Source: Agaricicola taiwanensis
GTDB lineage: Bacteria; Pseudomonadota; Alphaproteobacteria; Rhizobiales; Methylopilaceae
Direction: 5' to 3'
Assembly (NCBI RefSeq): GCF_014635245.1
Contig: NZ_BMCP01000001.1
Coordinates: forward strand, 1,364,001 to 1,428,000
Length of the DNA stretch: 64,000 nucleotides
Each line of letters starts with the position of its first letter. Positions within the stretch are counted from its first letter, which is position 1. Under the pieces are notes generated by a model. It saw only the letters and a program-made list of their open reading frames with translations. It searched no databases and was not told the origin of the DNA. The translations under genes and the position numbers were made by a program. Positions 46,563-53,889 of this stretch are shown piece after piece.

Positions 46563-46637
46563 TGGTGGGCGGTACAGGGATTGAACCTGTGACCCCACGC
46601 GTGTGAAGCGTGTGCTCTCCCGCTGAGCTAACCGCCC
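46563..46637 (-). tRNA. tRNA-Val (anticodon CAC), CCA encoded
   Basis: On the minus strand the sequence folds as a tRNA: acceptor GGGCGGT/ACCGCCC, D-arm GCTC...GAGC, anticodon stem CACGC/GCGTG with loop TTCACAC, and T-arm ACAGG TTCAATC CCTGT. The anticodon CAC reads GTG (valine). The 3' CCA is encoded. No integrated element is seen next to it. Confidence 0.95.
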
Positions 46638-46671: not shown

Positions 46672-48420
46672 TCAAGCGGCGCCATCGAAGGCATAGGCCG
46701 TTCTGACCGCGCCCCAATGCCGCCCGCCGACGCGGATCGGCGCGTCCACCTCCATCATCAGCACCATCCGGCCTCCGCCCATGTCGCGCTTGTACGACTG
46801 GATCAGGAAGGGGCGCATGTTGCGGGCGGCGGCAAGGCCGGCCCGATCGTCGAAGATACGGCGGTTGCGACAGTGCGCGGCGTTCCAGATCGGATCGTCC
46901 GGACGCTGCGGTTGGGAGTAGATGGTGTTGTGAACCGGCAGGTAGCCGTTGCGATCAACGGCGGCGCAGAAGCTCATCCGCCGATCCTCGGCCACCGCCG
47001 CCTCCTGGATCGGCGGCAGGACACGATCAAGCTCAGCCAGGGCAGGGTGGTCATGCTGAAGAGGATCGGTGTTGGGAATGGGAGTGTAGGTCGTCTCGAA
47101 CAACTCCTCCATGCGGAGCCGGCCTTCGCCGATGCAGCGCTCCATGGCCTGACCGACCTCCATGGAGACGCGCAGCGCACGTTCCACGAAGCCGGCATAA
47201 TTCTCGTCGAGCCGCGAGAGCGTCGCGCCCAGTGCCGCCCGCGTCTGTTCTGATAGCGCCTCGAACGAACAGTGCAGCCCAGCGGTACTGACGCCCCGAA
47301 CCTGAAGCGCGACGGCACCGATGCCGTCGATGTCGGCTTCGATCCGGGCTCCCGGTTTGACCTCGTGCTCACCGAGCGTGATCAGCACGCCACCTTCCGA
47401 CAGATCAAAGGTCGTTCCGGCATAGCGCCCTCCGCTTGCGCGAACCTCCGCCTTGAGGCTGGCAGGCCTGCGGCGGTGCGTGCGCCGGTCGCCGGCTTCC
47501 GTTTGGCGCAGGAAGAGCGTGAGGCGGCGCTCCAGGTCGTTCGCGCGCCTTGCCGCCTGCTGACCGTTTTCCTCAATGCGGCTCGCGATCGCCGTGGTAT
47601 TGGCGGCGGACACATCGATCTCGGCCGCCGATTGTGCCACCACATCGACGGCGCGGCCTGCCTGAGCGGCCAGCGTGCCGAGCGTTCCGGTGACGGAGCG
47701 TTGAAGATCCACCGATTGCGAAACAGCGGCGAACACCGGCTCGATGGTGTCGATCGCCGAGCCGATGCGCTCCACGGCGTCGACCGAGTTCTTCGTCACG
47801 CTGTTGAGCTGCTCGATCTTGCGGCGGATTTCCTCCGTCGCGCGCTGAGTTTCCAGCGACAGGTTCTTCACCTCGCTGGCGACGACGGCGAAGCCGCGGC
47901 CGGCTTCACCCGCTCGCGCCGCCTCGATGGTGGCATTGAGCGCCAGGAGGTTGGTCTGCCTCGCGATATTGGCGATGAGACTGACGACCTCGCCGATCTC
48001 CACGGTTGACGCGGTGAGGTCACTGACGGATTGCCGGGTGTCCCGGGCCGCATGTGCCGCCCGTTCAGTGAAGACCTTTGCTTCGGCAACACGGCTGTCG
48101 ATATCGGCGCTTGCTTCGCTCAGCCGCTCGGCAGCCGCGGCGATGTCGCTGCCGGTATTGCCAAGGCCGGCGGCCATCTCACCGAGGCTGCCTGTCTGGC
48201 CTTGGATGCCGCGCAGCGCGTCGGTGATCTCCCTGGTTTCCTCTGAAACAGCGCTCATGGCAGCGCCGATGGCGGCAGATGTCGCCTTCAAATCATCTTC
48301 AACGAGGTCGAGCGTTTCGCGCACGCCGTCGAGCGCGCTTTGCTCATCGGCCGATGTGACATGGCTGTTCTCCCGGATGGGCGGAACGGCGGCATCTTCC
48401 CGAGACGGCATCGGCAGCAT
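46672..48420 (-). CDS. Soluble methyl-accepting chemotaxis protein with PilZ domain
   Basis: Cytoplasmic chemoreceptor-like protein. ATG 48420 (582 residues) follows GGAGG with good spacing; an upstream ATG 48456 has no such site. There is no transmembrane or HAMP segment. Residues about 25-305 form the coiled-coil MCP signalling domain with the tip [19 protein letters not shown] (156-174). A PilZ domain follows with the complete c-di-GMP signature: Arg312-xxx-Arg316 and DLSEGG (339-344). The C-terminal part (about 410-582) looks like a globular sensor domain with [16 protein letters not shown] and [11 protein letters not shown]. Order signal-PilZ-sensor is unusual. It is monocistronic beside tRNA-Val. 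Confidence 0.88.
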
Positions 48421-48504
48421 GATCGGTCCCCTCCGGATGTGAAGCTTGAGCTTCATCTTGTCCGAAGTGACGATTGCAGGTTGTATTTAACGGCGGGTGA
48501 AGGG

Positions 48505-49176
48505 TTAGCCGAAGCCAAGTTGCTTGAGTGCGGGCCGAAGCTCACGATAACTGCCGATGACAGCATCTGCCCCAAGTTCTGCCGCAGGAACGTCAGTATA
48601 GCCGAAATCGACCAGCACGACCGGGATCGCCGCCTCGCGCCCGGCTCGAAGGTCGGTGAGGCTGTCTCCGATCATCACGGCGCGTTTGGCATCTCCGCCG
48701 GCACGTTCGATCGTGCCGAGAAGGTGGCGCGGGTCGGGTTTGGACGCGCCGAAGGTGTCGCCGCCGCCGATGGCCGCAAAATGTGGTGAGAGCTCCAACT
48801 GGTCGAGCACCATCCTGGCCAGTCGTTCCAGCTTGTTGGTGCAGACCGCAAGCCGCGCGCCTTCGAGGGCGAGTGACTCCAGCACCGGCACCATATCGGG
48901 AAAGGGGCGGCTCTCGAAGGCGATGTTGGCGACATAATGGTCCAGAAAGGCCGCCATCAGCTCATCGAAACGCTCGGGAGGAACACAGTGTCCATGTTCC
49001 CGCAGTCCCCGCTCGACGAGGGCGCGCACACCGGCGCCGACGAGATGCTTGGCATCGCCCAGCGAAACCGGGGCCAGCCCTTCCATGGCCAGCACCTTGT
49101 TGAGCGCCCCGATGAGATCGGGAGCCGTATCCACAAGCGTGCCGTCGAGATCGAAAACCAGTGTGACGTCGCGCAT
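48505..49176 (-). CDS. gph: Phosphoglycolate phosphatase
   Basis: HAD-superfamily phosphatase of 223 residues, cleaving 2-phosphoglycolate arising from DNA repair or Rubisco oxygenation. Motif I is VFDLDGTLVDTAPD (Asp9, Asp11), motif II is AVCTNK, motif III has the lysine in ASKPDPRHLL, and motif IV is MIGDSLTDLRAG. The cap domain is of the size found in Gph proteins. Other small phosphate monoesters are possible substrates. It lies between the chemoreceptor and a divergent small secreted-protein gene. Confidence 0.9.
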   Translation of the reverse strand: MRDVTLVFDLDGTLVDTAPDLIGALNKVLAMEGLAPVSLGDAKHLVGAGVRALVERGLREHGHCVPPERFDELMAAFLDHYVANIAFESRPFPDMVPVLESLALEGARLAVCTNKLERLARMVLDQLELSPHFAAIGGGDTFGASKPDPRHLLGTIERAGGDAKRAVMIGDSLTDLRAGREAAIPVVLVDFGYTDVPAAELGADAVIGSYRELRPALKQLGFG

Positions 49177-49277
49177 AATGGCTCTAACGAAGGTGTGACA
49201 AGAAAGCGGGGTCTGAATTCGGCGCGGACCATAGCCGCCGCGTATGATGCTGTCGATTCGGGGAAGGGAGCCTTGCC

Positions 49278-49658
49278 ATGACGAAATCCCAAAGATGCCT
49301 CTCGGCGGTCGCCCTGGCTCTCGTCACCATGGCGACGGCTGGATCCGCCGCGGCCGATGAATATATTTTCAAGGCCGCACCGCAGACCGACATCAACCGC
49401 GTCTACCGCGTCAACCGGCTGACCGGCGAAGTAGGAGCCTGCCAATATGCCTTGAAGGACAACAGCGTGGGCGTGACGCTCTGCTACGCCACGGGGGAGG
49501 GCGCCGGTCCCCAGAGCGAGCCCGGCGACTACGATCTGGTCGCCTCCAGCCATGAGCGTGAAGGCGGCATCTTTCGCGTCAACCGTCGCACGGGCGAGAT
49601 GAGCGTCTGCTATGTCCTGCCGCCCGATACCGTCGTTTGCACGCCGTCCTCGCGATAA
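49278..49658 (+). CDS. Secreted hypothetical protein with repeated VNR-TGE motif
   Basis: 126 residues with a signal peptide (1 to about 26, ending SAAADE). The mature part contains two similar units, VYRVNRLTGEVGACQYALK and IFRVNRRTGEMSVCYVLPP, each ending in a short strand with a cysteine. A third cysteine pair position is in VTLCYAT. The motif pattern suggests two beta-hairpin repeats. I do not recognise a family with a known role. It precedes gabD on the same strand by 79 bases. Confidence 0.75.
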   Translation: MTKSQRCLSAVALALVTMATAGSAAADEYIFKAAPQTDINRVYRVNRLTGEVGACQYALKDNSVGVTLCYATGEGAGPQSEPGDYDLVASSHEREGGIFRVNRRTGEMSVCYVLPPDTVVCTPSSR

Positions 49659-49737
49659 GGCCGGCAGGCTAGCGAGTTTGCGAGCGGGCGTGCTACACGC
49701 GGGTCCCGCCGAAACGCCAATGTAAGGAGCCGCCGTC

Positions 49738-51186
49738 ATGAAACTCAGCGACCAGTCCCTGCTGAAGGAGCAGTGCTACGTCGGTGGCGAATGGCTGGGC
49801 GAGCCTGCGGACGAAGTCACCAACCCCGCAACCGGTGAGGTTCTGGCCCGCGTGCCGCGCTTCGGCAGTGAGGAGGCGGCGCTTGCCATCGGCAAGGCGG
49901 AGGCGGCCTTCACGTCCTGGGCGGCGAAAACGGCAAAGGAACGCGCCGCGGTGATGCGGCGCTGGTATGAGTTGATGGTACAGCATCGGGAGGATCTAGC
50001 CCTCCTGATGACGAGCGAGCAGGGCAAACCGCTGGCTGAGGCCCGTGGCGAGGCGGATTACGCCGCCTCTTTCGTCGAGTTCTACGGAGAGGAAGCCAAG
50101 CGCATCAACGGCGAGACCTTGCCGAGCCACCGCGACGACGCCCGTATTCTGGTGCTGCGGCAGCCGGCCGGTGTGGTGGCGGCGATCACGCCTTGGAACT
50201 TCCCCATGGCCATGATCACGCGCAAATGTGCGCCGGCGCTGGCGGCCGGTTGCACGGTGGTGGTGAAACCTGCCGGAGAAACGCCGCTGACGGCGCTGGC
50301 ACTCGGCGTGCTGGCTGAAAAGGCCGGCGTTCCCGCGGGCGTGTTCAACATCGTCACCGGCGATGCCAAGGCCATCGGCGAGGTCTTCACCTCGCACCCG
50401 GCGGTGCGGGTGGTGGCCTTCACCGGCTCGACCCCCGTTGGCAAGCTCCTGATGAAGCAGGCGGCCGAAGGCGTGAAGAAGGTCGCGCTGGAACTCGGGG
50501 GCAACGCCCCCTTCATCGTCTTCGATGATGCCGATCTGGACGAGGCCGTTGCCGGCGCTATCATCTGCAAGTTCCGCAACATGGGCCAGACCTGTGTCTG
50601 CGCCAATCGCATCTATGTCCAGGATGGCATCTACGACAGCTTCATCGAAAAATTCGCCAAGGCCGCCGAGGGCCTGAAGGTCGGAAATGGTGCGGAAGCC
50701 AATGTGCAGCAGGGCCCGCTGATCACACCCAAGGCAGTGGACAAGGTCGAGCAGCATATCGCCGATGCCACGGAGAAGGGCGCCCGCGTCATGGTGGGCG
50801 GCAAGCGGCATTCGCTCGGCGGCACCTTTTTCCAGCCCACGGTCCTCGCCAACGTCACTCAGGACATGGCCATTGCCCATGAAGAGACCTTCGGGCCCGT
50901 GGCCGCGATCTTCCGTTTCCGTACCGAGGACGAGGTGGTGCGCTACGCCAACGACACGGAATTCGGCCTTGCAGCCTATTTCTATTCCCGCGACGTCGGC
51001 CGCATCTTCCGGGTTGGCGAAGCGCTGGAATACGGCATCGTCGGCATCAACTCCGGCCTGATTTCAACCGAGCTTGCGCCCTTCGGGGGCATCAAGGAGT
51101 CCGGTATGGGGCGCGAGGGCTCGCACCACGGCATCGATGAATTCACCAACATCAAATACATGCTGGTCGGAGGTCTCGGCACGTGA
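49738..51186 (+). CDS. gabD: NAD(P)-dependent succinate-semialdehyde dehydrogenase
   Basis: 482-residue aldehyde dehydrogenase oxidising succinate semialdehyde (from 4-aminobutyrate) to succinate. The catalytic residues are Glu252 ([11 protein letters not shown]) and Cys286 in GQTCVCANR, with a second cysteine at 288 as in GabD enzymes. The segment [23 protein letters not shown] is GabD-like. The stop overlaps the GTG start of rpiA. No gabT aminotransferase is near, so the source of the semialdehyde is not shown here; glutarate semialdehyde is an alternative substrate. Confidence 0.92.
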
Positions 51187-51884
51187 CGCAGGACGAAGCA
51201 AAGCGGGCCGTCGCGGCCGTTGCGATTGAAGCTGTACGGCCGGGAATGCGCCTCGGTCTCGGGACCGGATCGACGGCAAAGCATTTCGTGGATCTCCTCG
51301 GGGAGCTGGTGCGCGACGGCCTTCAGGTCATCTGCGTTCCCACCTCCGAGGCGACACGCGCCCAGGCGCAGAGCCTGAACATTCCGCTCACGACCCTGGA
51401 CGAGACGCCGGAACTCGATCTGACGGTCGACGGCGCCGATGAACTGGACGCTCATCTCAATCTCATCAAGGGCGGCGGAGCCGCCCTTCTGCGCGAGAAG
51501 ATCGTCGCCGCCGCCAGCGCCCGGATGATCGTGATCGCCGACGCTTCGAAGAAGGTCGAGACGCTGGGCCGCTTTCCCTTGCCCATCGAGGTGATCCAGT
51601 TCGGTCTCGGCGCGACGAAGATCGCTGTCGCCAAAGCCATCGAGGCTGCCGGTTGCACCGGGCCGACGCGCTTGAGGCTTGCCGCTGACGGCCATCCTTT
51701 GGTCACGGATTCCGGCCATGTGATCCTTGACGCCGCACTGGAACGGATACCCGATGCGCGCGCCCTTGCCGACAATCTGGCCGCCGTTCCCGGCGTTGTC
51801 GAACACGGTCTTTTCATTGGTCTTGCCAGCGAGGCACTGATCGCCGGTCCAACCGGAGTTGAGCGCCTGGCGTCGCCCGCCTGA
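51183..51884 (+). CDS. rpiA: Ribose-5-phosphate isomerase A
   Basis: Cytosolic isomerase interconverting ribose 5-phosphate and ribulose 5-phosphate in the pentose phosphate pathway. GTG 51183 overlaps the gabD stop (GTGA), so it is translationally coupled. The 233-residue protein has [14 protein letters not shown] (phosphate loop), [25 protein letters not shown] (with catalytic Asp and Glu candidates), and [10 protein letters not shown] near the end. Length matches the family. Confidence 0.95.
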
Positions 51885-51918
51885 AGCGGGATGTTCGTTT
51901 ACCGGAGGAATGATCCCT

Positions 51919-52449
51919 ATGAAGTCCCTTACGTCTTCCCTGTCGGCCATTGCGCTGGCGGCGGCCCTCGTGCTTCCGGCATCGGCCGCATTCGCGCAGG
52001 CGCCGACCACGACCCAGGCTCAGGCCGAGATCTCACCCGAACATCTGGCGCTTGCGCGGGCGGTCATCGATTTCACCGGAGCCGGTAATAGCTTCGACAA
52101 TATCGTTCCGCAGATCCTGGCTGACGCGCAGGCGCTGATCCTGCGCACGCAGCCGGCGCTTCAGAGCGATCTTGCCGCGGTCGTGCCGCAGCTGGAGCAG
52201 GAATTCGAAAAGCGCCGTGATGATCTTCTCAACGACATCGCCCGCACCTATGCCGAATCCTTCTCCGAGGATGAGCTGAAGCAGATCGCCGCCTTCTATC
52301 AATCCGCCATTGGCCGCAAGCTCACCGAGACGACGCCGAAGGTGCTGGAGCAGAGCTACGTCAAGGCGCGCAACTGGGGTCAGGCTGTATCCTCTGAGGT
52401 CATGATCCGGCTGCGTGAGGAGATGGAAAAGCGCGGGCACAATATCTGA
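51919..52449 (+). CDS. Secreted DUF2059 protein
   Basis: 176-residue protein with a signal peptide (1 to about 28, ending AAFAQ) followed by a helical DUF2059 domain. ATG 51919 is ten bases after GGAGG (51904-51908); ATG 51910 would be only one base away. Family marks are LARAVIDFTGAGNSFDNIVPQ and the later YAESFSEDELKQIAAFYQSAIGRKL. The molecular role is unknown, and the protein is periplasmic. It is probably co-transcribed with gabD-rpiA upstream and gor downstream. Confidence 0.88.
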   Translation: MKSLTSSLSAIALAAALVLPASAAFAQAPTTTQAQAEISPEHLALARAVIDFTGAGNSFDNIVPQILADAQALILRTQPALQSDLAAVVPQLEQEFEKRRDDLLNDIARTYAESFSEDELKQIAAFYQSAIGRKLTETTPKVLEQSYVKARNWGQAVSSEVMIRLREEMEKRGHNI

Positions 52450-52515
52450 CCTGAACCCAGACGGTCGCGCTATGGTGCGGCCTTCCATCCGCACCTGCTG
52501 TCCCGGAAGATCAAG

Positions 52516-53889
52516 ATGAAAACGGAAGTCGATTTCTTCGTCATCGGCGGAGGATCAGGCGGAGTACGTGCCGCGCGGATCGCCGCGCAACACGGTGCCT
52601 CCGTCGCCATCGCTGAGGAATATCGCTTCGGAGGCACCTGCGTGGTGCGGGGCTGCGTGCCGAAAAAGCTGTTCGTCTACGCCAGCCGCTTTCACGACGC
52701 CTTCGAAGATGCCAGGGGCTTTGGCTGGAGCGTTGGCGACATCGCGTTCGATTGGAAGGTGTTGAAGCAGGCCAAGGATACGGAGATCCAGCGCCTGACC
52801 GAGGTCTATGAGCGCAACATGCACCGTGCCGACGTCGAGGTGCATAAGACGAGGGCGGTCCTAGAGGATGCCAACGCGGTTCGCCTCGCCGATGGGACGG
52901 TGATCAAGGCCAGGCATATCCTCATCGCCACCGGCGGGCGACCGCACATGCTGGACATCCCCGGAGGGGAGTTCGCCATCAGTTCCGATGACATCTTCGA
53001 GATGGAGGCCCTGCCGGCGCGCATGACCATCATCGGCGGCGGCTACATCGCGGTGGAGTTCGCGGCGCTGCTGCAGCGCCTGGGGGTCAAGGTCACGCTG
53101 GTGCACCGCGGCCCCATGCTGCTCGCCGGCTTTGACGAAGATCTGCGCATCGGTGTCATGGCCACCCTGCAGGCCGCTGGCGTGAATCTAAAGATGAACG
53201 ACACGGTCGAAGAGATTCAGAAATCAGGCCAATCTTTCCTCACGACCTTCGCAACAGGTGATCAGGTCGAGACGGACCTTGTTCTGATGGCAACCGGCCG
53301 GCGGCCGAATACATCGCAGCTGGGCTTGGAAAAATTGGGCGTGAAGATGAACGCCAAAGGGGCCATCGAGGTCGACGCGGCCTCGCGCTCGAGCGTCCCC
53401 TCCATCTATGCCGTCGGTGATGTGACCGACCGTGCCAATCTCACGCCTGTCGCCATTCGCGAAGGCCATGCCGTGGCCGACAGCCTGTTCGGGGAGATGG
53501 CCTGGACCGTTGATCATGACCTGATCGCAACAGCCGTTTTCAGCACGCCGGAGCTTGGAACCGTCGGTATGACGGAGGCTGCGGCCCGCGCCAGGGAAAT
53601 CGACATCGACGTTTACCGCACGCTGTTCCGTCCCATGAAGCATGTTCTCAGCGGGCGCGATGAGCGGACCATCATGAAGCTCGTCGTCGACAAGAAGACG
53701 GATCGCGTGCTGGGCGTCCATATCCTCGGCGAGGATGCGGGCGAGATGATCCAAACGGTGGCGATCGCCGTCACGATGAGGGCGACCAAGGCGGACTTCG
53801 ACCGCACCATGGCGGTTCATCCGACAGCGGCGGAAGAGCTCGTCACTCTCCGGGAAAAAATGCACGTCCCCAATCCGGGCAGCGTTTAA
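52516..53889 (+). CDS. gor: Glutathione-disulfide reductase
   Basis: FAD-dependent enzyme reducing oxidised glutathione with NADPH. The 457-residue protein has the FAD motif FFVIGGGSGGVRAARIAA, the redox disulfide GGTCVVRGCVPKK (Cys42, Cys47), an NADPH motif IIGGGYIAVEFAALLQRLG and the C-terminal catalytic base in MAVHPTAAEELVTL. The spacing GGTCVVRGCVPKK is that of glutathione reductases rather than lipoamide dehydrogenases. It follows the DUF2059 gene after 66 bases. Confidence 0.93.
   Translation: MKTEVDFFVIGGGSGGVRAARIAAQHGASVAIAEEYRFGGTCVVRGCVPKKLFVYASRFHDAFEDARGFGWSVGDIAFDWKVLKQAKDTEIQRLTEVYERNMHRADVEVHKTRAVLEDANAVRLADGTVIKARHILIATGGRPHMLDIPGGEFAISSDDIFEMEALPARMTIIGGGYIAVEFAALLQRLGVKVTLVHRGPMLLAGFDEDLRIGVMATLQAAGVNLKMNDTVEEIQKSGQSFLTTFATGDQVETDLVLMATGRRPNTSQLGLEKLGVKMNAKGAIEVDAASRSSVPSIYAVGDVTDRANLTPVAIREGHAVADSLFGEMAWTVDHDLIATAVFSTPELGTVGMTEAAARAREIDIDVYRTLFRPMKHVLSGRDERTIMKLVVDKKTDRVLGVHILGEDAGEMIQTVAIAVTMRATKADFDRTMAVHPTAAEELVTLREKMHVPNPGSV

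Follow-up and report, generated by a model that had tools for sequence, protein, structure and literature searches.

The window, a stretch of 64,000 nucleotides from Agaricicola taiwanensis (contig NZ_BMCP01000001.1), encodes on its minus strand (46672..48420) what most likely is a cytoplasmic chemoreceptor of the Cbp1 type with two inputs, namely, c-di-GMP through a PilZ domain and a small molecule through a Cache-like domain, a reading to which we assign a probability of roughly 0.7. The idea of a soluble chemoreceptor that reads c-di-GMP is already known through Cbp1, and the receptor described here is of that type. The new part is the unnamed C-terminal Cache-like domain, which is common to Cbp1 and many other chemoreceptors and is predicted to sense an internal ligand. 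Because domain databases show nothing at the C-terminal end of these proteins, such a sensor would be an overlooked input of Cbp1 and of widespread chemoreceptors of Pseudomonadota.

The open reading frame (46672..48456, minus strand) encodes 594 amino acids from the first ATG. The ATG at 48420, which yields a protein of 582 amino acids, is the better start because a GGAGGGG Shine-Dalgarno sequence lies just upstream; residue numbers throughout are those of the 594-residue frame. The protein consists, in this order, of an MCPsignal domain, a PilZ domain and a conserved C-terminal domain. Its maximum 19-residue Kyte-Doolittle mean is 1.33, and therefore, it has no membrane segment. The MCPsignal domain (PF00015; residues 135-281; 47614..48054, minus strand) was detected by Pfam well above the cut-off (E 7.6e-28), and its hairpin tip, the region that contacts CheA and CheW (47857..47976, minus strand), aligned to other MCPs of the same genome with no insertions or deletions. 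Thus, the protein has the signalling hairpin and the conserved tip of a chemoreceptor. The genome encodes a single CheA, along with 12 GGDEF matches and four PilZ matches, the latter spread over three frames.

No chemotaxis genes adjoin the receptor gene. It is flanked on the same strand by tRNA-Val (cac) (46563-46637), 34 bases 3' of the stop codon, and, 84 bases upstream of its start codon (48420), by the end of a phosphoglycolate phosphatase-like (gph-like) gene (48505-49176). The latter belongs to a run of gph-, aldehyde dehydrogenase-, rpiA- and glutathione reductase-like genes (48505-53889). Among 80 related loci, gph-like and rpiA-like genes are present in 32 each and glutathione reductase-like genes in 30, indicating that the receptor locus is often conserved.

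The PilZ domain (PF07238; residues 323-411; 47224..47490, minus strand) was likewise identified well above the Pfam cut-off (E 2e-11). It includes both the RxxxR motif (R325-T-H-R-R329; 47470..47484, minus strand) and the DxSxxG motif (DLSEGG, residues 351-356, with D351, S353 and G356; 47389..47406, minus strand), and the corresponding part of the AlphaFold model resembles c-di-GMP-bound PilZ structures, those of Alg44, PA0012, MapZ and YcgR, with MapZ in complex with CheR1 (5xly) among the matches. The protein thus combines the fold of PilZ proteins with their RxxxR and D/NxSxxG motifs. Both motifs are intact in 44 of the 65 family members. Two positions adjoining the second arginine of RxxxR are atypical in the receptor: R328, where 61 of the 65 members have Asp or Glu, and R330, where the usual residue is Leu. 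In the lineage of Bradyrhizobium, Rhodopseudomonas and Afipia, the motifs have decayed, with VYEIS.. replacing DxSxxG and RxxxR often lost, and the flanking domains, including the C-terminal one, are still conserved (loci L077, L083, L085, L086, L094, L095, L098, L100, L104, L106, L107, L110, L113 and L114).

Among characterised proteins, the nearest relative is Cbp1 (AZC_3349) of Azorhizobium caulinodans ORS571. This soluble chemoreceptor comprises MA and PilZ domains and binds c-di-GMP (KD 14.9 uM), and the binding is required for normal chemotaxis; the R320A variant neither binds c-di-GMP nor rescues chemotaxis (PMC6454048). The description of Cbp1 ends in the PilZ domain and does not mention a C-terminal domain (PMC6454048). 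We located the cbp1 gene through the published R320 mutagenesis site, which matched one of 392 genomes of the family. The resulting frame of 581 residues has the published start primer at its start codon and the 3' complementation primer at its stop codon, both exact, and residue 320 is the first arginine of RxxxR, the counterpart of R325. Over 446 residues, the receptor and Cbp1 share 45% identity, and they remain colinear up to the C-terminus; therefore, Cbp1 itself has the C-terminal domain, and the receptor shares with it the same three domains and the lack of a membrane segment. By analogy with Cbp1, the receptor probably binds c-di-GMP. As a side observation, the published reverse primer for Cbp1 expression lies 181 bases beyond the stop codon (L140:2958-2974), so that the expressed protein may lack the C-terminal His tag described for it.

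The C-terminal domain (about residues 403-590; 46687..47250, minus strand) matched no model of Pfam or NCBIfam. AlphaFold predicted it with high confidence (mean pLDDT 93, pTM 0.87) as a 41-residue N-terminal helix (H5-45) followed by a PAS-like sheet, that is, the arrangement of Cache domains, which are distinguished from PAS by the long N-terminal helix (PMC4822843). The best Foldseek matches, all remote (TM about 0.5-0.66), included the sCache domain of WalK (TM 0.64-0.66 by target length) and the dCache sensors of the chemoreceptors TlpC, TlpA, PctD and PacA. A sequence search of solved structures with a profile built from diverse members yielded four matches, all non-significant; three of them were dCache chemoreceptors, each aligned over the same PIxxxGKxWG stretch (E 0.5-1.3). 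The Cache and PAS models of Pfam matched none of the 51 or of the 15 domain members, and for this reason, we only call the domain Cache-like; the predicted structure suggests affinity to Cache without making it a proven member. Cache families are principally extracellular, with Diacid_rec and YkuI_C as exceptions (PMC4822843), and among the papers available to us, we found none relevant to chemoreceptors whose Cache domains are cytoplasmic or C-terminal. The C-terminal domain is not mentioned in the accessible parts of the descriptions of Shewanella MCP_0387 and of the magnetotactic PilZ receptors. Two further candidates were considered: the Caulobacter copper receptor McpR was rejected as a relative given that its sensor is N-terminal, and Pseudomonas PctP (PA1608), a possible carrier of the domain, was not established as such, being described, in the accessible part of the source, with a periplasmic 4HB sensor only.

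The initial annotation of this gene, made from the sequence alone, had described a soluble receptor with an N-terminal MCP signalling hairpin, intact PilZ motifs and a globular C-terminal domain of a ligand-binding type. The hairpin, the solubility and the motifs are confirmed by the Pfam match, the hydropathy profile and the residues listed above; the confident model and the recurrence of the C-terminal domain bear out its globular character, and structure prediction with the fold search gives the suspected ligand-binding fold a PAS/Cache-like identity. The further suggestion that a receptor of this kind feeds c-di-GMP into chemotaxis agrees with the experiments on Cbp1 (PMC6454048), and the same architecture recurs, with MCP, PilZ and the C-terminal domain arranged in this order in all 63 complete frames from named genomes, usually of about 590 residues.

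Among the sampled genomes, the C-terminal domain was detected in 108 of 297 from the order, in 47 of 289 from the class and in 88 of 398 from the phylum, but in the organism's own family in only 2 of 12; its best relatives within the order are 52-62% identical. Nearly always, it is located C-terminal to the MCP module. Alphaproteobacterial relatives lacking PilZ are soluble proteins consisting of MCP and this domain, and those from other Pseudomonadota mostly contain predicted membrane helices followed by MCP and the domain. Further architectures include PAS-4HB-MCP-PilZ-domain and protoglobin-MCP-PilZ-domain, the latter with a globin-type sensor, PilZ and the Cache-like domain in a single chain (L123:548-2665 and L136:79-2322). 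In one protein (L126:3-1559, a locus from genome G165), a LytTR DNA-binding domain replaces the MCP hairpin, so that this sensor apparently also serves transcription control. In a domain tree built on a thinned sample, the PilZ-bearing proteins form essentially one group, requiring two changes vs 34 in shuffles, with moderate support of 80-87, and thus, PilZ was probably gained or lost only a few times. Cbp1 and the receptor both belong to this group (SH-aLRT 80-87), within which the inner branches are weak and the gene neighbourhoods of the two differ.

Taken at the level of sequence, the domains, motifs, colinearity with Cbp1 and conservation are established. How the receptor could work is suggested by the AlphaFold model of PilZ together with the C-terminal domain (pTM 0.81), in which one helix (117-157) joins the two, such that the final helix of PilZ runs on without a break as the long initial helix of the Cache-like domain; hence, either ligand could move the base of the hairpin. 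Such helix coupling is proposed from a single-chain model, whereas receptors work as dimers. Under the proposed mechanism, the N-terminal hairpin would join the chemoreceptor array and control the only CheA of the genome, the middle PilZ domain would read c-di-GMP via R325/R329 and D351-S353-G356, and the C-terminal PAS/Cache-type sensor would bind a conserved cytoplasmic small molecule or cofactor. Either ligand might shift the hairpin base through the joining helix, with c-di-GMP most likely adjusting how the receptor responds to the other one. That the C-terminal domain binds a ligand is suggested by its fold, conservation and modular use, its partners (protoglobin, PAS/4HB, LytTR) being those expected of a sensor module.

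Three alternatives deserve consideration. The C-terminal domain might serve in protein interaction or localisation, anchoring the receptor to the array or to a partner, and leave PilZ as the sole sensor. This would fit a domain without a known ligand and has a precedent in the soluble receptor TlpD, which, according to the accessible part of the source, requires its C-terminus for polar placement (PMC13001251). We regard this as unlikely given that the fold belongs to a sensor superfamily, that conservation of its polar residues extends from Hyphomicrobiales to distant members of Pseudomonadota, and that the fusion to a LytTR output suggests sensing rather than placement in the array. Similarly improbable, in our judgement, is that c-di-GMP causes the PilZ domain to bind CheR, in the manner of MapZ, altering the methylation of this and other receptors without switching CheA. 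This mechanism was put forward for Cbp1 by its authors (PMC6454048), and the PilZ part does match the MapZ-CheR1 complex structurally, but that match reflects the general PilZ fold.

The PilZ domain could also have ceased to bind c-di-GMP in this species, such that the receptor senses only its C-terminal ligand. The decay of the motifs in the Bradyrhizobium, Rhodopseudomonas and Afipia relatives, the many proteins that combine MCP and the C-terminal domain without PilZ, and the unusual R328 and R330 all point in this direction; nevertheless, the receptor retains every motif residue, as do the majority of the family members noted above, making this the least probable of the three. Accepting instead the two-input receptor of the Cbp1 type, a broader reading, which we consider evenly balanced between right and wrong, is that the C-terminal domain represents a so far unrecognised family within the Cache superfamily, cytoplasmic and placed after the MCP hairpin in many chemoreceptors of Pseudomonadota. 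Most of these chemoreceptors are soluble in alphaproteobacteria, whereas in the other Pseudomonadota most have predicted membrane helices. In Hyphomicrobiales, PilZ would then lie between hairpin and sensor, so that c-di-GMP and an internal metabolite are read together. Receptors of the Cbp1 type connect c-di-GMP, and with it the choice between swimming and settling, with steering, and Cbp1 influences both root colonisation and nodulation; the identity of the C-terminal ligand would reveal what these receptors track.

Among known systems, Cache sensors, both the sCache of WalK and dCache domains, resemble the C-terminal domain in the long N-terminal helix and the PAS-like sheet, and dCache receptors additionally share with it a PIxxxGKxWG-type stretch; the present domain differs in being cytoplasmic, in its position C-terminal to the hairpin and in having no Pfam Cache match. 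In Tlp1 and Aer of Azospirillum brasilense, PilZ also follows the MCP signalling module and is needed for sensitivity (Tlp1) or normal behaviour (Aer), but these receptors are membrane-anchored, with N-terminal sensors (periplasmic in Tlp1, PAS in Aer), and are described as ending in PilZ (PMC6406031). The closest counterpart is Cbp1, which, despite a different neighbourhood (a TctC-like gene follows cbp1, whereas gph and tRNA-Val flank the gene described here), is likewise soluble, has the same order of MCP, PilZ and C-terminal domain, retains the RxxxR arginine and is nearly identical in length (581 vs 582 amino acids).
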